Source: an uncultured Pelagibacteraceae bacterium (lineage in GTDB: Bacteria > Pseudomonadota > Alphaproteobacteria > Pelagibacterales > Pelagibacteraceae). From it: 64,000 bases of DNA. Positions 53,495 to 61,678 of the stretch are shown in pieces (positions within the stretch are counted from its first letter, which is position 1; every line of letters starts with the position of its first letter). The DNA lies in contig CACBKA010000001.1 of the NCBI GenBank assembly GCA_902539745.1, forward strand, positions 62,001 through 126,000, written 5' to 3'. The position numbers and the translations under genes were made by a program. The notes below the pieces were generated by a model that saw only the letters and a list, made by a program, of their open reading frames with translations, was not told where the DNA came from and ran no database searches.

Positions 53495-54556
53495 ATGAAA
53501 CGAACCCTATTTATTACATTATTTTTATCTATATTTTCTTTTAACAGCACAGTGTCTGCAGACGTTAAAGTAGTTACTTCGATTAAGCCAATACATTCTT
53601 TGGCTGCATACGTAATGGATGGTGTTGGAAAACCTAATGTAATAGTAGATGGTTATAATTCACCACACGGTTTTAGCTTAAAACCATCACATGCAAAAAT
53701 GATTGAAAACGCTGATCTAATTATTTGGGTTGGTGAAGATTTAGAAGCATTTTTAGAAAAACCATTAGATTCAATTGCAAAAAAAGCAACAAAAGTAGAA
53801 TTAATGGATTTAAAAGGAATTAAAAAATTAAAATTTAGAGAAAAAAATATTTTTGAAGGTCATGATGATCATGGACATAAAAAAGATAAACATGACGATC
53901 ATGGACATAAAAAAGATAAACATGACGATCATGGACATAAAAAAGATAAACATGACGATCATGGTCACAAAGAGCACAAAGAGCATGGACACAAAGAGGA
54001 TAAACACAAAGAGGATAAACATGATGATCACGGTCACGAGGGACATGCTCACGGAGAACACGATCCGCACATTTGGTTAGACCCAATGAACGCCAAAGTG
54101 ATTATTAAAGAAATTACAAATCAATTAGTTAAGCTTGATTCAGCAAACAGCGCAAAATACAAAGCTAATTCTAGAGAAGCTATTTCTGATATAGACGCGT
54201 TAACAAAATCCATCAAAAAAGACTTAAATAAAAATTCAAGAGTTGTAGTTTTCCATGATGCTTATCAATATTTTGAAAATAGATTTGGAATTAAAATTCT
54301 TGGGGCGTTAACTGTTAATACAGATGTATTACCTGGTGCTGAACAATTAGCTGAAATTAGAGAAGTTATTGAACATGAAAAAGTTAATTGTATTTTTTCA
54401 GAACCCCAGTTTAATCCATCAATTATAAAAACAATTGCAAAGGATACAAATATTAAAACTGGTGTGTTAGATCCTCTGGGAGCAACCCTAGACAAAGGTA
54501 AAGGCATGTATTCTGAACTACTTAAGAATATGTCTTCGTCCTTTAAAGGCTGCTAA
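53495..54556 (+). CDS. znuA: Zinc ABC transporter substrate-binding protein with long His-rich loop
   Basis: A periplasmic zinc-binding protein of 353 residues. The signal peptide is [22 protein letters not shown]. Zinc ligands are expected in [25 protein letters not shown] and [16 protein letters not shown], with a late Asp in [11 protein letters not shown]. Between GHDDHG and DPHIW lies a charged loop of about 65 residues (roughly 121-188) with nearly 30 histidines, built from a 30-base tandem repeat. AAGGAG precedes the ATG. The gene overlaps the convergent ABC ATPase gene by 4 bases. Confidence 0.95.
53861..53960 (+). repeat. 30-bp tandem repeat encoding the ZnuA histidine loop
   Basis: Three consecutive 30-base units (53861, 53891, 53921) of catgacgatcatggacataa plus aaaagataaa follow with almost no differences (first copy gatgat for gacgat). 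A fourth unit at 53951 is partial and decays into related motifs to about 54050. Each unit encodes [10 protein letters not shown]. Because 30 is a multiple of three, copy-number change would alter loop length without a frameshift. Confidence 0.95.
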
Positions 54557-55608
54557 TTTTTGATCCTATTTTTATTTGAATCAAAGAAATAAACATTTTC
54601 TTTAGAGAATGATATTTGGGAATGATTTTTATCTATATTGCTTGAAGTTTTTATTCTAAACTCTTCACCATCTACAGACGAGTATATAATCTTATCAAAT
54701 CCAAGATTTTCTATAAGATCAATCTTAATCTTGGCTTTTATATCTTGAGAATTATCAGCCTTAATATGTTCAGGTCTAATTCCAAGATAAATATCATCAT
54801 TAAATTTATAACCATTAAACTGGATATCGCTGTTAAAAATATTAATTGTATTTCCGTTTTTAATTTTTCCTTTATCAATTTTTAAAATATTCATTCTCGG
54901 TGACCCTATAAATTCTGCTACAAAAATATTATTTGGATCGTTGTATATTTCATCTGGTGATCCATATTGCTCCATTACTCCTTGGTTTAAAATAACAATC
55001 TTATCAGCTAGAGTCATGGCCTCTACTTGATCGTGTGTAACATAAATCATATTCGTACTAAGTTTTTTATGAAGTTTTGAAATTTCTACACGCATTTCTG
55101 ATCTTAAAGCAGCATCAAGATTTGAAAGCGGTTCATCGAACAAAAACAATTTAGGGTTTCTCGTTATTGCGCGTCCTATTGCTACTCTTTGTCGTTGTCC
55201 GCCGGATAGTTGTCTTGGTTTTCTCTCAAGAAGATCTTCAATCTGAAGAGTTTTTGCTGCATCTTTTACCTTTTTATCTATTTCGTTTTTATCAAGCTTT
55301 TCATTTTTCAATCCGAATGACATATTTTCGTAAACATTCATGTGCGGGTATAAAGCATATGATTGAAAAACCATTGCAATTCCTCTTTTTGATGGAATTA
55401 AATTATTAATTATTTTTTTATCTAAATGTATTTCACCTTCATCAACTGACTCTAAACCAGAAATCATTCTTAGTAGTGTCGACTTTCCACATCCTGATGG
55501 ACCTACTAAAACAATAAATTCGCCGTGATTAATTTTAATGTTAAATTTGTCTATGACCTTGTTTGCACCAAATGATTTTTCAATATTTTTTAATTCGATA
55601 GTAGCCAT
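54553..55608 (-). CDS. CUT1-type sugar ABC transporter ATP-binding protein (UgpC/MsmX-like)
   Basis: A 351-residue ATPase. Walker A is [26 protein letters not shown], then [23 protein letters not shown], signature [43 protein letters not shown], and a TOBE/OB C-terminal domain ([24 protein letters not shown]). This is the MalK/UgpC type that serves glycoside and polyol-phosphate importers. It is divergent from the binding-protein gene that begins a plus-strand permease operon, and most likely powers it. Confidence 0.93.
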
Positions 55609-55703
55609 ACAACTTCTGGTTTAACTTTAGATTTTAATTTTTATTTATACTTAAAAATTAAAGTAATAGAAAAATTCGATAGCATCTATAATTTTTTTAA
55701 AGG

Positions 55704-55733
55704 GTTTTCATTCTCGACAGATTTGGTAGGTTT
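55704..55733 (+). promoter_or_regulatory. Divergent promoter spacer of the CUT1 importer
   Basis: The 158-base spacer (55609-55766) must hold promoters for both the ATPase gene (minus) and the binding-protein gene (plus). For the plus direction a weak TTGGTA-like -35 near 55725 and TATATA/TATAAA about 15 bases later can be proposed. I found no convincing operator dyad in the spacer. Confidence 0.2.
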
Positions 55734-55766
55734 TCTCGTTTATATATAAAATTATTAGGGGGATAA

Positions 55767-57089
55767 ATGAAAAAAGTAATAATTTATCTTTTTGCTTTAG
55801 TATTTTTGGCAAACTCGAGTTATGCCGGAATTACATTTTGGACGACTGAAGTACAGCCGGCTAGAATGGAAAAGCAGAAAGAAATGGCTAAAGCTTTTGA
55901 AGCCAAGTCAGGTATTAGCGTAGAAGTAATTCCTGTTGAAGAAAAAGATCTTGGAAAAAGAGCTACAGCTGCAGCAGCTGCAGGTGATCTACCTGATGTG
56001 ATCTATCATACACTTCAGTACGTATTACCATGGGCAGAAGCTGGGATATTAGATGTTAATGCTAACAACGCAGTTGTTAAATCTTTGGGTAAAAATACTT
56101 TTGCTCCAGGTGCACTTAACATGGCAAAAAAAGGTGGAAAAATAGCTGCTGTACCAGTTGATGGCTGGACACAGATGGTTGTTTACAGAAAAGATTTGTT
56201 CAAAGAATTTAATCTTCAACCACCAACAAATTATGAAAACATTTCTAAAGCTGTAAAAGCTTTATCAAATGCAGACAGATTTGGATTTGTTGCTGCCACG
56301 AAAACAGATGAAAACTTTATGAGCCAAGTACTCGAACATGTACTTTTAGCGAATGGAGTTAATTTTGTTAAAAAGGGTGGAACAAAGAAACAAGGTAAAG
56401 AACTTAAAAATGCTCTAGTGTTTTACAAGGAACTTGCTAAGGCAAGCCCTCCAGGAGAATTATTCTGGAAACAATCTAGAGAGCTTTACTTCGCTGGCAA
56501 AACACCAATGATTATTTGGTCACCATTTATTATGGACGAATTAGCAGGATTAAGAGACTCTGCTCCTCCAACAATAAACAGTGATCCAACATCGCCGGAA
56601 CTTGCATCAAAAACTGGTTTCATCACAAACTTTAGTGGTCCAGATAATAAAAAAGGTGCTGCTTGGGCTGATGTTAGATACTTTGGTATTACTGCTGATG
56701 CTGATACTGATGAGGCTAAAAAATTCATCGAATACTCAATGGATGAAGGTTACACAGCTACATTATCTATCGCGCCAGAAGGTAAATTTCCTGTAAGAAG
56801 AGGAAATGCTAGTGATCCAGCTGCGTTTACAAAAGCTTGGAGTAAGCTTCCAGTTGGTGTTGATAGAAAGAAACCTTTAACAGAACTTTATTCTGGTGAT
56901 GTTATTAATAACATTGTAGCAGGTTTAGATACTGCTAACAGATGGGGTGTTAAAGAAGGTGAACTTTCTAGAGCATCTAAAATCATCAATGCACAATTCT
57001 TAAATAGAATCACAAGAGAATTTATTGATGATCAAATTACAGCAGATGAAGCAGTTGATAAAATCAACGCTGAATTAGCTAAATTTTAG
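55767..57089 (+). CDS. CUT1-type ABC transporter substrate-binding protein
   Basis: A 440-residue periplasmic binding protein with a signal peptide (KKVIIYLFALVFLANSSYAG). The fold signature ITFWTTEVQPARMEKQKEMAKAFEAKSGISVEVIPVEEKDLGKRATAAAAAGDLPDV is followed by DGWTQMVVYRKDLFKEFNLQPPTNYENISKAVKAL, typical of family 1 carbohydrate-binding proteins. Ligand unknown; the downstream GH63-like hydrolase suggests a glycosyl-glycerate or related glycoside. A GGGGG Shine-Dalgarno lies 4 bases ahead of the ATG. A terminator-like hairpin follows the stop. Confidence 0.92.
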   Translation: MKKVIIYLFALVFLANSSYAGITFWTTEVQPARMEKQKEMAKAFEAKSGISVEVIPVEEKDLGKRATAAAAAGDLPDVIYHTLQYVLPWAEAGILDVNANNAVVKSLGKNTFAPGALNMAKKGGKIAAVPVDGWTQMVVYRKDLFKEFNLQPPTNYENISKAVKALSNADRFGFVAATKTDENFMSQVLEHVLLANGVNFVKKGGTKKQGKELKNALVFYKELAKASPPGELFWKQSRELYFAGKTPMIIWSPFIMDELAGLRDSAPPTINSDPTSPELASKTGFITNFSGPDNKKGAAWADVRYFGITADADTDEAKKFIEYSMDEGYTATLSIAPEGKFPVRRGNASDPAAFTKAWSKLPVGVDRKKPLTELYSGDVINNIVAGLDTANRWGVKEGELSRASKIINAQFLNRITREFIDDQITADEAVDKINAELAKF

Positions 57090-57102
57090 TAAAAATATTC
57101 AT

Positions 57103-57135
57103 AAAAAGCGGGTAATATAATATTATCCGCTTTTT
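57103..57135 (+). terminator. Terminator/attenuator between binding protein and first permease
   Basis: AAAAAGCGGGTAATAT-A-ATATTATCCGCTTTTT forms a stem of up to 16 bp with one G-U, with a GCGG/CCGC core and flanking A and T runs. It ends only 2 bases before the ATG of the first permease gene, so it should reduce both transcription and initiation of the membrane genes relative to the binding protein. Confidence 0.85.
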
Positions 57136-57137
57136 AT

Positions 57138-58397
57138 ATGACAGACACTTTATCAAAAATAGAAAAAAGAACTGCTTACACCCTCCTATTACCAGCGGTG
57201 TTTTTAGTCTTCGCCATAGTTTTATTTCCAATATTTGCAAATATCTGGATAAGTTTTAAGGAAGTACAATTAAAAGATATTAGAATTCCTGAACCAAGAG
57301 CAAAAAAAATTGTAAAAATTATACCTGAAGACAAATCAAAATTAAAAATAGTTTATAGACTAAGAAATAGTTCGTTAATTCAAGATATCAATAATATTAA
57401 ATTTTCAGAAAGACTTCCAAACAATATAGAACCTGCAGATCTTGACTCAAGATGTGAATTTAAATCAAAAAAAATTATATGTAATTTTGGGAATTGGGAA
57501 GCTGGATATAAAGAAAATTTTGAAATTTTAATTCAAAATACTAATAATAAGGAAATAGATAAAACAGCTGTTAAAGATCAAGAACCAAAACTATCTGGTG
57601 ATGCTGATAATATTTTATTAACAACAAAGTTTACATTAAAAAACTTCAAAAATATTTTTAATGAAAATGAGTTTTTAGATTTATTGTTAACTACTTTTTA
57701 CTTCACATTTTTTGGAACTGTTGGTGCTATTATTTTTGGAATGTTTGCTGCGCAATTAGTAAATCAAAAGTTTTATGGTAGGACTTTTATGAGGAGTATT
57801 TTACTTTTTCCATACGTAGGTCCAGTAGTTGCATTAGCATACACTTGGACATTAATGCTTGATCCAAATAGTGGAACTTTAAATGCTCTACTGGTTAATT
57901 TCGGTATAATTGATAAACCAATTAATCTATTAGGTCAGAAATATTTAATATTAAGTCTTTTTGGTTTTGAAATTAAATTAAGATTAGCATTAACAACTGT
58001 AATTATGTTTGAAATTTGGAGATACTTTCCCCTAGCCTTCTTGTTTATTTTAGCAAGGCTGCAGGCTGTTCCTAAAGATTTGTATGAAGCTGCGGAAGTT
58101 GATGGTGCTGGACCATTTAGAAAATTTATAAATATTACTCTTCCACAGATAACAGCAATTTTATCTATTCTGTTTATGATAAGGTTTATTTGGAATTTTA
58201 ATAAATTTGAAGATATTTTTCTTTTAACTGGTGGAGCATCGGGAACAAGAACATTACCAATTAATGTATATCAACAAGGTTTTGCTGTTTCAAACATAGG
58301 AATGGGATCCGCTGTTTCTATTGTCATAGTCATGTTGCTAATAATTTTCATGATTATTTACTTTAAATTAATTGGAAAGAGAGCAAATGAAGTATAA
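57138..58397 (+). CDS. CUT1-type ABC permease with DUF11-like periplasmic insertion
   Basis: A 419-residue MalF/UgpA-like permease. TM1 (about 14-37) is followed by roughly 125 periplasmic residues, then five helices and the coupling loop DLYEAAEVDGAGPFRKFINITLPQI. Usual UgpA proteins have about 290-310 residues and a short TM1-TM2 loop. The insertion contains KIVYRLRNSSLIQDINNIKFSERLPNNIEP, then CEFKSKKIICNFGNWEAGYKENFEILIQN, which resembles the Ig-like DUF11 repeat (N-D-LP then C...C-G-x-L-x-x-G) with two cysteines. It may contact the binding protein, as the MalF P2 loop does. It overlaps the next ORF by 11 bases. Confidence 0.93.
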   Translation: MTDTLSKIEKRTAYTLLLPAVFLVFAIVLFPIFANIWISFKEVQLKDIRIPEPRAKKIVKIIPEDKSKLKIVYRLRNSSLIQDINNIKFSERLPNNIEPADLDSRCEFKSKKIICNFGNWEAGYKENFEILIQNTNNKEIDKTAVKDQEPKLSGDADNILLTTKFTLKNFKNIFNENEFLDLLLTTFYFTFFGTVGAIIFGMFAAQLVNQKFYGRTFMRSILLFPYVGPVVALAYTWTLMLDPNSGTLNALLVNFGIIDKPINLLGQKYLILSLFGFEIKLRLALTTVIMFEIWRYFPLAFLFILARLQAVPKDLYEAAEVDGAGPFRKFINITLPQITAILSILFMIRFIWNFNKFEDIFLLTGGASGTRTLPINVYQQGFAVSNIGMGSAVSIVIVMLLIIFMIIYFKLIGKRANEV

Positions 58398-58863
58398 ACC
58401 GTTATTCATTTATTTATTTATTTCATCAGTTTTTTTAACTTTGGTGAGTTCGATCTGGAAAATTATGGCAACCCTACAAGGACTGAAGCTTACAGAGATA
58501 AATCTTAATATTAATTTTCTTCTAGCTCTATTTTTAAGTCTGGCGTTTATTTTAATAGGTAAAAAGTTTAATCATTTAATTAAAATTGTAATTCTTTCTT
58601 TAATATTCACTTTTTTTTATATTTTGATAAATGAAGGTGCTCCAATTTGGTATAATGTTGGCATTCTTTTAATATGCTTATTTTTTACAAATAGACTTAA
58701 AAATTATGATTTAAATTTTCTAAGAGAGGATTTTATCTCTGAAAAGATTGTTTTTGATTTTTTATCACTTTTTTGCAATTGTATTTTTTGCTTTTGTAAT
58801 TTTATTTCCCTTTTATTTAATGTTCGTAACGAGCTTCAAAACTCAAGCCGCTCTTTTGTTTAA
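58387..58863 (+). CDS. Small membrane protein overlapping the second permease
   Basis: An ORF of about 158 residues from ATG 58387 (the track's 58372 is a TTG). It has four hydrophobic segments: PLFIYLFISSVFLTLVSSIW, FLLALFLSLAFILIG, IKIVILSLIFTFFYILI and YNVGILLICLFF. The last 40 or so residues (IVFDFLSLFCNCIFCFCNF onward) are the out-of-frame reading of the permease that follows, a 125-base overlap. Either a real accessory subunit with a long overlapping tail, or the N-terminal part of a longer permease separated by a +1 frameshift near GAAAAGATTG. No family recognised. Confidence 0.5.
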   Translation: MKYKPLFIYLFISSVFLTLVSSIWKIMATLQGLKLTEINLNINFLLALFLSLAFILIGKKFNHLIKIVILSLIFTFFYILINEGAPIWYNVGILLICLFFTNRLKNYDLNFLREDFISEKIVFDFLSLFCNCIFCFCNFISLLFNVRNELQNSSRSFV

Positions 58864-59581
58864 TCCTTTAGATTTAAGTATTAGTTTAACAAATAATCTA
58901 ACAGAAACATTTAAATCTTATTTTGTTATTTTTAATACTTATGACTTTGGAAGATATATTTATACAAGCTCTATTGTTTCAATAGGAACTGTAATTATTA
59001 CTCTGATCTTTGCGATACCAGCGGCGTATGCTGTTGCTAGGTTGAACTTTTTTGGCAAAACTTTTTTATCTACTTCAATATTAATTATATATATGTTCCC
59101 AGCTATAGTTTTGGTTATACCTCTTTATACTGTTTTTAGTCAGTTAGGTTTAAGAAACTCAATTGAAGGTCTTCTAATTGTTTACACAGCAACAACTCTA
59201 CCTGTCGCAATTTATATGTTACAAGGTTACTTTAAAAGTATTCCTAAAGAAATTGAAGATGCTGGCCTAATGGATGGACAAAATTGGTTTGGAATAATAA
59301 TTAAAATTATCATACCTTTAAGTTTGCCAGCAATAGCATCTGTTGCCTTGTATGTTTTTATGATTGCATGGAATGAATTTTTATTTTCTTTAATGTTTTT
59401 GGACAATCCTAAAACATTTACATTATCCAGGGCTATCAATCATTTAACTGGTGATGCTGAAACACCTAGACAATACCTGATGGCCGGCTCAGTAGTGGTA
59501 ACTTTGCCTATTCTTTTAATTTTTGTTTACTTTGAAAAATATCTTGTCAGTGGATTAACTGCGGGAAGTGTAAAGGGTTAA
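58739..59581 (+). CDS. CUT1-type ABC permease (MalG/UgpE-like), probable CTG start
   Basis: About 280 residues with six helices: FAFVILFPFYLMFVTSFKTQAALL near the start, IYMFPAIVLVIPLYTVFSQLGLRNS, and coupling loop IPKEIEDAGLMDGQNWFGIIIKIIIPLSLPAIASVALYVFMIAWNEFLFSLMF. The ORF track begins at TTG 58748. In-frame TAA at 58721 limits the start. AGAGAGGA (58723-58730) is 8 bases ahead of CTG 58739, which gives the family-like MKRLFLIF; TTG 58748 would be 17 bases away. I therefore prefer CTG. The stop shares one base with the hydrolase ATG (TAATG). Confidence 0.88.
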   Translation: MKRLFLIFYHFFAIVFFAFVILFPFYLMFVTSFKTQAALLFNPLDLSISLTNNLTETFKSYFVIFNTYDFGRYIYTSSIVSIGTVIITLIFAIPAAYAVARLNFFGKTFLSTSILIIYMFPAIVLVIPLYTVFSQLGLRNSIEGLLIVYTATTLPVAIYMLQGYFKSIPKEIEDAGLMDGQNWFGIIIKIIIPLSLPAIASVALYVFMIAWNEFLFSLMFLDNPKTFTLSRAINHLTGDAETPRQYLMAGSVVVTLPILLIFVYFEKYLVSGLTAGSVKG

Positions 59582-60837
59582 TGAAAATTTCGATAAATAA
59601 AGCAAAAAAAACTTTACTTGGTAACAGAAGAAAAGGATACACCTTACCAACCAATAATAAACTTTACCCTGCTCAGTGGAATTGGGACTCAGGCTTTATT
59701 GCTCTAGGATATTCTTACTTTAATTTAAACTTTGCATTAAAAGAAATAAATACATTGTTAGATGGGCAATGGAAGGATGGAATGGTTCCACACATTTTGT
59801 TTCATAATACAAGAACAAACTATTATCCAAATTATACTGCATGGAATTGTGGTAATAAAATCCACTCATCTGGAATAACTCAACCACCAATATTAGCAAC
59901 AATTTTAAAAGAAATTTTAAATAAAAATAGTATTAGCAAAACCCAAATTATAAATATAAAAAAAATAATTTTAAAAATTAAAAAATTTCATGAATGGTTA
60001 ATTCAATTTAGAGATCCAAAAAAAAGTGGTTTGGTATCAATTTTGCATCCTTGGGAAAGTGGATATGATAATTCCCCTTTATGGGATGAGCCTATGAATA
60101 AAGTAAAAATTGAAAAAAATATAAAATATAAAAGAGCTGATAATAAAGTTGTAAACCCAGATTATAGACCACATGATATTGATTACGATAGATATGTCAC
60201 AATAAAAAATCATTTAAGAAAAATTAAATATAATCCAAAAAAAGTTTATAAATCCTCCTTTTTTAATGTGGTAGATGTTGGTTTTAATTCAATATTTTTA
60301 AAAGCAAACAAAGACCTAGTTACATTATTAGATGCCTTTGGTTTAAATAAAAATAAAATAGATGGATACATCAAAATGACAGAAAAAAATTTCCTTAAAT
60401 TATATGATAAAAAAAAAGGAACTTTTTTTTCAAAAGATGTAAAAAATAATAAAAAGATCTACATGCCATCAATAACCAATTATTTTGTATTATTTGCTGA
60501 TTTGAACAATAGTAAAATTAATAACAAACTAATTGAAAATCTTAAAAAACATAACCCTAAAGAAAAATATTTTTTTTCATCAATTAAACCAAATCATAAA
60601 AGTTTTGAGGAGAAAAGATACTGGAGAGGCCCTGTCTGGATTAATTGTAACTGGTTTATTTACAAAGGATTAAAAAATAAAGATAAGTTTTTTTCTGATA
60701 AAATTAAAAATAAAACTATTGAAATGTTAGAGAAAAAAGGTTTTTTTGAATATTACAGTTGTAAGAATGGTAAACCAATGGGTGCAAAGAATTTTTCTTG
60801 GTCTGCCGCTTTGTATTTAGATTTAAAGTCTAATTAA
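59581..60837 (+). CDS. GH63-like glycoside hydrolase (glucosyl/mannosylglycerate hydrolase type)
   Basis: A 418-residue (alpha/alpha)6-type hydrolase without signal peptide, so cytoplasmic. Conserved stretches are YPAQWNWDSGFIALG (30-43), DGMVPHILF, SSGITQPPILA, HPWESGYDNSPLWDEP (156-171; Asp163 is the likely general acid), RPHDIDYDRYV, RYWRGPVWINCNWFIYKGL (346-364) and GFFEYYSCKNGKPMGAKNFSWSAALYL (387-412; Glu390 is the likely base). This layout matches bacterial GH63 glucosylglycerate/mannosylglycerate hydrolases; other GH63/GH37-like specificities remain possible. It is translationally coupled to the permease gene, implying cleavage of the imported solute. Confidence 0.8.
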   Translation: MKISINKAKKTLLGNRRKGYTLPTNNKLYPAQWNWDSGFIALGYSYFNLNFALKEINTLLDGQWKDGMVPHILFHNTRTNYYPNYTAWNCGNKIHSSGITQPPILATILKEILNKNSISKTQIINIKKIILKIKKFHEWLIQFRDPKKSGLVSILHPWESGYDNSPLWDEPMNKVKIEKNIKYKRADNKVVNPDYRPHDIDYDRYVTIKNHLRKIKYNPKKVYKSSFFNVVDVGFNSIFLKANKDLVTLLDAFGLNKNKIDGYIKMTEKNFLKLYDKKKGTFFSKDVKNNKKIYMPSITNYFVLFADLNNSKINNKLIENLKKHNPKEKYFFSSIKPNHKSFEEKRYWRGPVWINCNWFIYKGLKNKDKFFSDKIKNKTIEMLEKKGFFEYYSCKNGKPMGAKNFSWSAALYLDLKSN

Positions 60838-61678
60838 TTTTTCTAACGATAAAAACGAAAATTATTGAAGTTAAGAACATTACTATCGCATAAGTAGCCG
60901 TAGGTATGAGATAGGTTATTTCAGTAAAGAGTTGACTTGCTACAAATACAGCTAAAGTTCCGTTTTGAAGTCCACACTCAAGAGAAATAGATTTTCTTTG
61001 TGAAACTCCACTGGCAAGAAATTTTGCAACATAGTAACCGATAAACATCATGATAATATTTAAAACTAAAGTAATTAATCCAGCTTGTTTAATATAACCC
61101 ATTATATTCTCCCACTCTTCAACCCATATAGCAGCAAAAACAATTACAAATAAAAAAACTGAAATTCTTTCAATCAATTGAGATTTAGACATAACAAAGT
61201 TTGTTGCGAATTTTCTTATTAACATTCCAATAATTACTGGAAGAGTTACAACCAAAAACATTTTCATTGATATTCCTATCATTGAAATTTCTTTTGAAAT
61301 TTCCGCAACTTCTAATAATTCTGCAGATTTAAATACAATAAATGGAACCGAAATAATGCTGATTAAACTTATAATTGCTGTTAATGAAATTGAAAGAGCC
61401 ACATCTCCATTAGCAAATTTTGTAAGTACATTAGATGTTACACCACCAGGTGCAGCGGCAATAATCATTACACCAAGAGCAATCTCTAAAGGTAAATTAA
61501 AAATTTTAAGTAGTAGAAAAGCAATAATTGGAAGCAGTATTAACTGACAAATTAATCCAACTAAAAAATCTTTTGGCTGTTTTACTACTCTTAAAAAATC
61601 TTGACCGGTTAAACCTAATCCAAGTGCTAACATTATTAGTGCGAGAGCTATAGGCGCAATTTTTGTTACTACTTCCAT
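60830..61678 (-). CDS. Bile acid:Na+ symporter family (BASS) transporter
   Basis: A 282-residue membrane protein with about nine helices. Family motifs are LALIMLALGLGLTGQDFLRV, IAAAPGGVTSNVLTKFANGDVALSISLTAIISL and SLECGLQNGTLAVFVASQLF. Members move organic acids with sodium, such as bile acids and pyruvate; bacterial substrates are often unknown. The 8-base overlap with the convergent GH63-like gene excludes a terminator. Its proximity to a possible glycerate-releasing enzyme is suggestive only. Confidence 0.88.
   Translation of the reverse strand: MEVVTKIAPIALALIMLALGLGLTGQDFLRVVKQPKDFLVGLICQLILLPIIAFLLLKIFNLPLEIALGVMIIAAAPGGVTSNVLTKFANGDVALSISLTAIISLISIISVPFIVFKSAELLEVAEISKEISMIGISMKMFLVVTLPVIIGMLIRKFATNFVMSKSQLIERISVFLFVIVFAAIWVEEWENIMGYIKQAGLITLVLNIIMMFIGYYVAKFLASGVSQRKSISLECGLQNGTLAVFVASQLFTEITYLIPTATYAIVMFLTSIIFVFIVRKIN

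Follow-up and report, generated by a model that had tools for sequence, protein, structure and literature searches.

Glucosylglycerate as the leading candidate substrate of an import and hydrolysis cassette in a SAR11 genome

Which solute enters a cell through an ATP-binding cassette (ABC) importer whose last permease gene runs into that of a glycoside hydrolase, and what becomes of it there? In the oligotrophic surface ocean, SAR11 and picocyanobacteria predominate, and marine cyanobacteria have a compatible solute that contains no nitrogen, glucosylglycerate (2-O-alpha-D-glucosyl-D-glycerate, GGA). We analyzed a locus of this kind in SAR11 (Pelagibacteraceae), on a stretch of 64,000 nucleotides referred to below as the window (contig C1, 62001-126000; the draft genome spans 923 kb and is 80% complete). 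At the DNA level, its best named relatives were single-cell genomes of Pelagibacteraceae (AG-/AH- series), which places it in SAR11. The original prediction proposed import of glucosyl- or mannosylglycerate and its cleavage in the cytoplasm, and it was supported by homology and conserved residues, and most of all by the context of the genes. Most likely, the cassette takes up and hydrolyzes a hexosylglycerate, GGA being the leading substrate. The minus-strand ATPase, solute-binding protein (SBP), two permeases and 418-residue hydrolase that had been described are all in place:

54553-55608, minus strand: CUT1-type importer ATPase, UgpC/MalK-like (NCBIfam NF008653 UgpC, 474 bits against a cut-off of 432)
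55767-57089, plus strand: periplasmic SBP with the signal sequence MKKVIIYLFALVFLANSSYA (PF13416/PF01547)
57138-58397, plus strand: permease A (PF00528 at residues 197-415)
58372-59581, plus strand: permease B, frameshifted (PF00528; alignment with relatives)
58769-58774, plus strand: T-run with one extra T, the frameshift site in permease B (DNA alignment with eight relatives)
59581-60837, plus strand: predicted cytoplasmic GH63-type (MGH1-like) mannosyl-/glucosylglycerate hydrolase, 418 aa (PF22422, 4e-82; Thermus MgH 2z07/4wva, E 1.9e-94)

The ATPase gene does not face the operon of SBP, permeases and hydrolase, as had been claimed, but is transcribed divergently from it, as MalK is relative to MalEFG. 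The TAA of permease B and the ATG of the hydrolase do have one base in common, A59581 (junction GGTTAATGAAA), and the same one-base overlap was kept in own-genus relatives with a complete junction. Judging from the sequence, the hydrolase is translationally coupled to permease B.

To which family does the hydrolase belong? It covered the full PF22422 MGH1-like_GH profile (1-356/356) with 277 bits, for a cut-off of 27. Against solved structures, we observed 320 bits for Thermus thermophilus mannosylglycerate hydrolase (MgH; 38.7% identity), 188 bits for Mycolicibacterium hassiacum glucosylglycerate hydrolase (MhGgH; 29.4% identity) and 31 bits for E. coli YgjK; the low YgjK score beside that of MgH, and the low fold rank of trehalases given below, place the enzyme outside the GH37 trehalases and the N-glycan GH63 enzymes. 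The SAR11 hydrolases formed one clade in the tree (100/100), whose neighbors were Thermus MgH and an enzyme from Catenovulum (86/87), with MhGgH apart. The outcome that would have refuted the original prediction, a grouping with trehalases or N-glycan glucosidases, was not seen; by tree, structure scores and fold the window enzyme groups with Thermus MgH. The AlphaFold model of the hydrolase was moderate (pLDDT 59, pTM 0.69) and was used solely to confirm the fold rank: Foldseek placed 4wva/4wvc first and MhGgH next, with trehalases and YgjK far lower. The earlier description as GH63-like holds for the MgH/GgH family as such, but the main domain is the MGH1-like PF22422 and the GH63 C-terminal Pfam match was weak (34 bits).

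The active site tells the same family from its residues. As predicted, the putative catalytic pair D163 (acid) and E390 (base) aligned with D182/E419 of MhGgH, and the motifs WNWDSGF, HPWESGYDNSP, WRGPVWINCNW and FEYY...FSWSAAL were all found. In a residue map drawn from the active-site contacts of MhGgH (PMC6608630), D163 and E390 were identical to MhGgH/MgH together with Y29, W33, W35, D36, H71, Y81, Q101, W158, G161, R196, Y202, Y347, W348, W353 and W407; R196, Y29, Y81 and Y347, the glycerate contacts, are thus all conserved. Q433 of GgH is replaced by N404, and the Gln434 contact of that study may be the same variable position. No hydrophobic signal sequence was seen at the N-terminus, read by eye, in line with the original prediction. 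The ratio of nonsynonymous to synonymous substitution rates (dN/dS) was about 0.1, which indicates strong purifying selection on the hydrolase. Taken together, these results establish its membership in the MgH/GgH family.

What its substrate could be emerges from the gene context across SAR11, for which we used a single set of 197 genomes from the Pelagibacterales; own-genus searches covered 31 genomes. The hydrolase was present in 53 genomes of the set, the SBP in 68, GpgS in 52 and a YcjM-like phosphorylase (GgaP) in 39. SBP and hydrolase occurred together in 48 genomes and, whenever they were on the same contig (47/47), the hydrolase lay on the same strand at most 4.5 kb downstream of the SBP. 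Hydrolase or GgaP was found in 66 of the 68 SBP genomes; 18 of the 20 without hydrolase carried GgaP, at most 6 kb away in 16/16 same-contig cases, and in L129/L132 GgaP stood directly 3' of permease B, the position taken by the hydrolase in the window. No genome had both hydrolase and GgaP, versus about 10.5 expected (Fisher p 1e-6, uncorrected for shared ancestry). As genomic evidence that the two enzymes share one substrate, this strict either-or is unusually clear-cut. Two loci (L142 and L146, genomes G208 and G212) had the transporter, and neither hydrolase nor GgaP was found there; the L146 stretch ends at a contig edge, and these are either incomplete drafts or cases of another enzyme.

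The identity of these partner genes bears on the nature of that substrate. SAR11 GgaP was 36% identical to E. coli YcjM over 535 residues (377 bits) and scored much lower against sucrose and glucosylglycerol phosphorylases (160 and 155 bits). It lay within 200 bp of GpgS in 29/30 same-contig genomes. GpgS itself reached 364 bits with the GpgS model NF040724, below the cut-off, and the sole other family matched was another GpgS model; the HAD gene beside it scored 160-164 bits against the MPGP phosphatase family. In L147, L149 and L150, a GpgP-GpgS-hydrolase operon without transporter had the hydrolase as its last gene. The GpgS/GpgP operons, the exchange with GgaP, the exclusivity and the linkage therefore point to one shared substrate, glucosylglycerate.

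Is the transporter compatible with such a solute? All parts of a CUT1 importer were recognized, with an SBP_bac_1/8 protein, two BPD_transp_1 permeases (once the frameshift in permease B is allowed for) and a MalK/UgpC-type ATPase (45% identity to UgpC, 49% to MalK). Among E. coli proteins, the SBP scored 98 bits with YcjN, 41 with MalE and 27 with UgpB; permease A, 128 bits with YcjO, 113 with UgpA and 81 with MalF; and permease B, 169 bits with YcjP, 96 with MalG and 71 with UgpE. The SBP was also 58-66% identical to SBPs from operons of marine Alphaproteobacteria. Its AlphaFold model (pLDDT 41) was too poor for reading the binding pocket; family-invariant residues such as R344, W134 and D132 might line a carboxylate/sugar pocket. 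Permease A has an insert of about 120 residues ahead of the transport domain, placed like the MalF P2 loop, and its alphaproteobacterial relatives are of similar length.

From these elements a pathway can be proposed. The SBP would capture GGA in the periplasm, and the two permeases with the divergent ATPase would import it intact; mannosylglycerate is possibly also accepted. The coupled hydrolase is predicted to split GGA by an inverting mechanism, with D163 as acid and E390 as base, into glucose and D-glycerate. The glucose would probably be phosphorylated by the ROK kinase of the genome (G000:C1:57776-58645), and oxidation of the glycerate to hydroxypyruvate and serine is our hypothesis.

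Several observations weigh against this pathway or its assignment to GGA. The NCBIfam glucosylglycerate hydrolase equivalog NF047898 gave 300.7 bits against a cut-off of 550, so that the hydrolase is not filed there and, by sequence, may prefer either sugar, and the Thermus mannosylglycerate hydrolase is closer. The linkage of GGA genes (GpgS, GpgP, GgaP, glycerate kinase) was seen in other SAR11 genera and other bacteria, and that with GpgS and GgaP is outside the window's genus, where we found GpgS in 0/31 genomes, glycerate kinases in 0/31 and GgaP in 0/3 own-genus genomes of the 197-genome set. The missing glycerate kinases (PF13660/PF02595) and the other pathway gaps were assessed by family searches only. 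In addition, the genome is incomplete (80%), the assembly carries a frameshift in permease B, and the Fisher tests take no account of shared ancestry.

Could the true substrate be mannosylglycerate, or both compounds, with mannose and glycerate as main products? The nearest solved and characterized relative is indeed Thermus MgH, with moderate tree support, MhGgH hydrolyzes glucosylglycerate and mannosylglycerate alike (PMC6608630), and comparable operons in L182, L186 and Limimaricola have AGE/mannose-isomerase genes nearby. However, the SAR11 relatives carry GpgS and GgaP, genes of the glucosyl compound, and the AGE mannose isomerase was not found in the 197 Pelagibacterales genomes. The ROK kinase of the genus is nearest to a fructokinase model and does not decide between the two sugars. 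Overall, we regard this reading as unlikely.

If GGA is the substrate, where does it come from? GGA serves marine cyanobacteria, Prochlorococcus included, as a compatible solute (PMC11631117, PMC3686209), and its synthesis has been reported in some SAR11 genera (PMC12636525). The query that detected GpgS in 52/197 genomes of the order found none among the 31 own-genus genomes, so the window's lineage most likely takes GGA from other cells; with this gene content, it probably scavenges external GGA. An importer that recovers the cell's own leaked osmolyte, for osmoprotection or recycling, would fit the other SAR11 genera in which the transporter adjoins GpgS/GpgP/GgaP. Yet a genus without GpgS would have no GGA of its own to recover, and the coupled hydrolase would destroy the solute instead of storing it, which makes recycling quite improbable here. 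A general alpha-glucoside importer (for sucrose, trehalose, maltose or glucosylglycerol) paired with a glucosidase that is trehalase-like or broad in range is very improbable, since the often broad CUT1 transporters, the NCBI name 'trehalase family glycosidase' of relatives and the weak PF01204 match of one SAR11 homologue stand against the conserved glycerate contacts, the far lower scores of trehalases and YgjK than of MgH/GgH, and neighbors from the glycerate pathway. For the glucosylglycerate pathway, we infer binding of GGA by the SBP, activity of the hydrolase and an origin of the solute in neighboring cells.

Has the hydrolase always belonged to this locus? Within the genus, SBPs were 88-99% identical, and the hydrolase at the same position was either 92-98% (type 1, that of the window) or 55-59% identical (type 2). 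At the DNA level, the window and a locus of another genus (L045) shared 65-82% identity in the transporter genes but 88-92% in the hydrolase gene. With own-genus type-2 loci, identity was 90-100% in the ATPase and SBP genes, dropped to 66-74% in the hydrolase gene and was back at 95-97% immediately beyond. A single own-genus hydrolase clade was rejected (approximately unbiased test, p-AU 1e-8), and the window SBP grouped with own-genus type-2 carriers. These identity jumps, the tree test and the SBP grouping make it most likely that recombination replaced the hydrolase with one from another SAR11 genus. The active site was retained in both types. The two hydrolase types alternate at one site in the window, L045, L029 and L024. 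In one own-genus genome (G023, L040 9750-10625), a type-2 hydrolase is broken by stops and a frameshift beside an intact transporter.

Permease B raised a separate question, as a small membrane open reading frame (ORF) had been predicted as its own gene. The T-run at 58769-58774 has six T in the window versus five in the eight aligned relatives, and this extra T splits permease B into two ORFs, at 58372-58863 (the supposed small gene) and 58748-59581 (277 aa, C-terminal, TTG start). Without the shift, permease B is a single frame of 397-402 aa, and an intact ORF of at least 390 aa was present in 117/127 related loci; most of the other 10 loci run into a contig end or have no transporter, and the ORF seems short in L092 and L113. 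The small membrane ORF was therefore rejected as a true accessory gene: it is the N-terminal part of permease B. Past the shift, the protein remains about 98% identical to relatives, so any real mutation must be recent; the extra T is either an assembly error or such a mutation.

Around the cassette, the 3' ends of the ATPase gene and of a gene for a ZnuA-like zinc-binding protein (53495-54556) overlap by 4 bases; the latter protein has a His/Asp-rich tandem repeat and varies in length among relatives (330-354 aa). On the other side, a BASS-family sodium symporter gene (60830-61678, minus strand; SBF family, with a weaker match to the pantoate transporter PanS) converges on the hydrolase with an 8-base overlap of their ends. 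The cassette was found at two genomic sites, beside zinc-uptake and BASS/GAPDH genes as in the window, or beside ROK/inositol-type genes. The kinase and ABC genes of the second context were considered as a fructose system feeding the pathway; this was dropped, the binding protein being nearer to the rhizopine/inositol type and IolD-like genes lying around. An Rfam scan of the window found four transfer RNAs only and no riboswitch.

Is the layout specific to SAR11? Among 385 genomes drawn from the class, full-length hydrolase matches lay mostly within operons of the order LacI-SBP-PermA-PermB-hydrolase-ATPase, and in the named cases (Thalassospira, Ruegeria, Maritalea and Limimaricola plasmids) the SBP was 64-66% identical to that of the window (tblastn). 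A SAR11-specific layout was therefore rejected, this operon type being widespread in marine Alphaproteobacteria. The claim that no described pathway has this exact layout thus stands for the literature, where our search found no paper on it, nor on GGA import or hydrolysis in SAR11, but not for genomes. In both Maritalea and Limimaricola, a glycerate kinase gene adjoins the operon. The transporter recurs in Paroceanicella, but there a YcjM homologue (43%) replaces the hydrolase, which extends the hydrolase/phosphorylase exchange beyond SAR11. Deinococcus peraridilitoris combines a different ABC set with hydrolase, glycerate 2-kinase and ROK kinase genes in one run. Some non-SAR11 versions may handle mannosylglycerate, as hinted by mannose-isomerase/AGE epimerase genes close to operons of this kind in L182, L186, L195 and L198.

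What would this mean for the surface ocean? We consider as new the proposed SAR11 pathway, the exclusivity of hydrolase and phosphorylase and the probable acquisition of the hydrolase gene from a different genus of SAR11. A wider picture, put forward tentatively and with somewhat less than even confidence, is that much of tropical surface SAR11 eats GGA released by Prochlorococcus/Synechococcus through a dedicated importer. The intracellular enzyme behind it would be exchangeable, either a GH63 hydrolase or a GH13_18 phosphorylase but not the two together; the allele of the hydrolase would recombine at this locus between SAR11 genera, and the glycerate may ease the known glycine/serine need. 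If true, importer and hydrolase would form a specific, gene-marked and measurable carbon route from cyanobacteria to SAR11. They would also give a candidate function to an SBP family labelled 'extracellular solute-binding protein' by NCBI and to a hydrolase that in Ruegeria, Maritalea, Limimaricola and Thalassospira carries the label 'hypothetical protein'.

How does the cassette compare with known systems? For the enzyme, Thermus thermophilus MgH (TTHA0978; PDB 2z07, 4wva-c; GH63) is alike in full-length identity (39%), length, cytoplasmic location and all catalytic and substrate residues. In contrast, the window enzyme belongs to a SAR11 clade of its own and sits in an ABC import operon of an oligotrophic marine bacterium. 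M. hassiacum GgH (PDB 5ohc and others) has the same family and active site at 29% identity, but the mycobacterial enzyme mobilizes internal GGA after nitrogen starvation, a role in which the window enzyme would differ. For the transporter, YcjNOP is the nearest of the E. coli systems compared; in ycjMNOP, ycjM (glucosylglycerate phosphorylase) precedes ycjNOP. YcjM phosphorolyzes where the window enzyme would hydrolyze, and the kojibiose-pathway genes are absent from the window system. Alphaproteobacterial agl-type operons (aglR-aglEFGAK) serve alpha-glucoside uptake with a GH13 glycosidase. Their order of regulator, SBP, two permeases, glycosidase and ATPase matches the Ruegeria, Maritalea and Limimaricola relatives, whereas the SAR11 cassette has no adjoining LacI gene and its ATPase is on the other strand. 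Finally, mngA-mngB of E. coli imports mannosylglycerate through a phosphotransferase system with phosphorylation, followed by GH38 cleavage; it likewise couples hexosylglycerate uptake to intracellular cleavage, but with proteins unrelated to those of the window.

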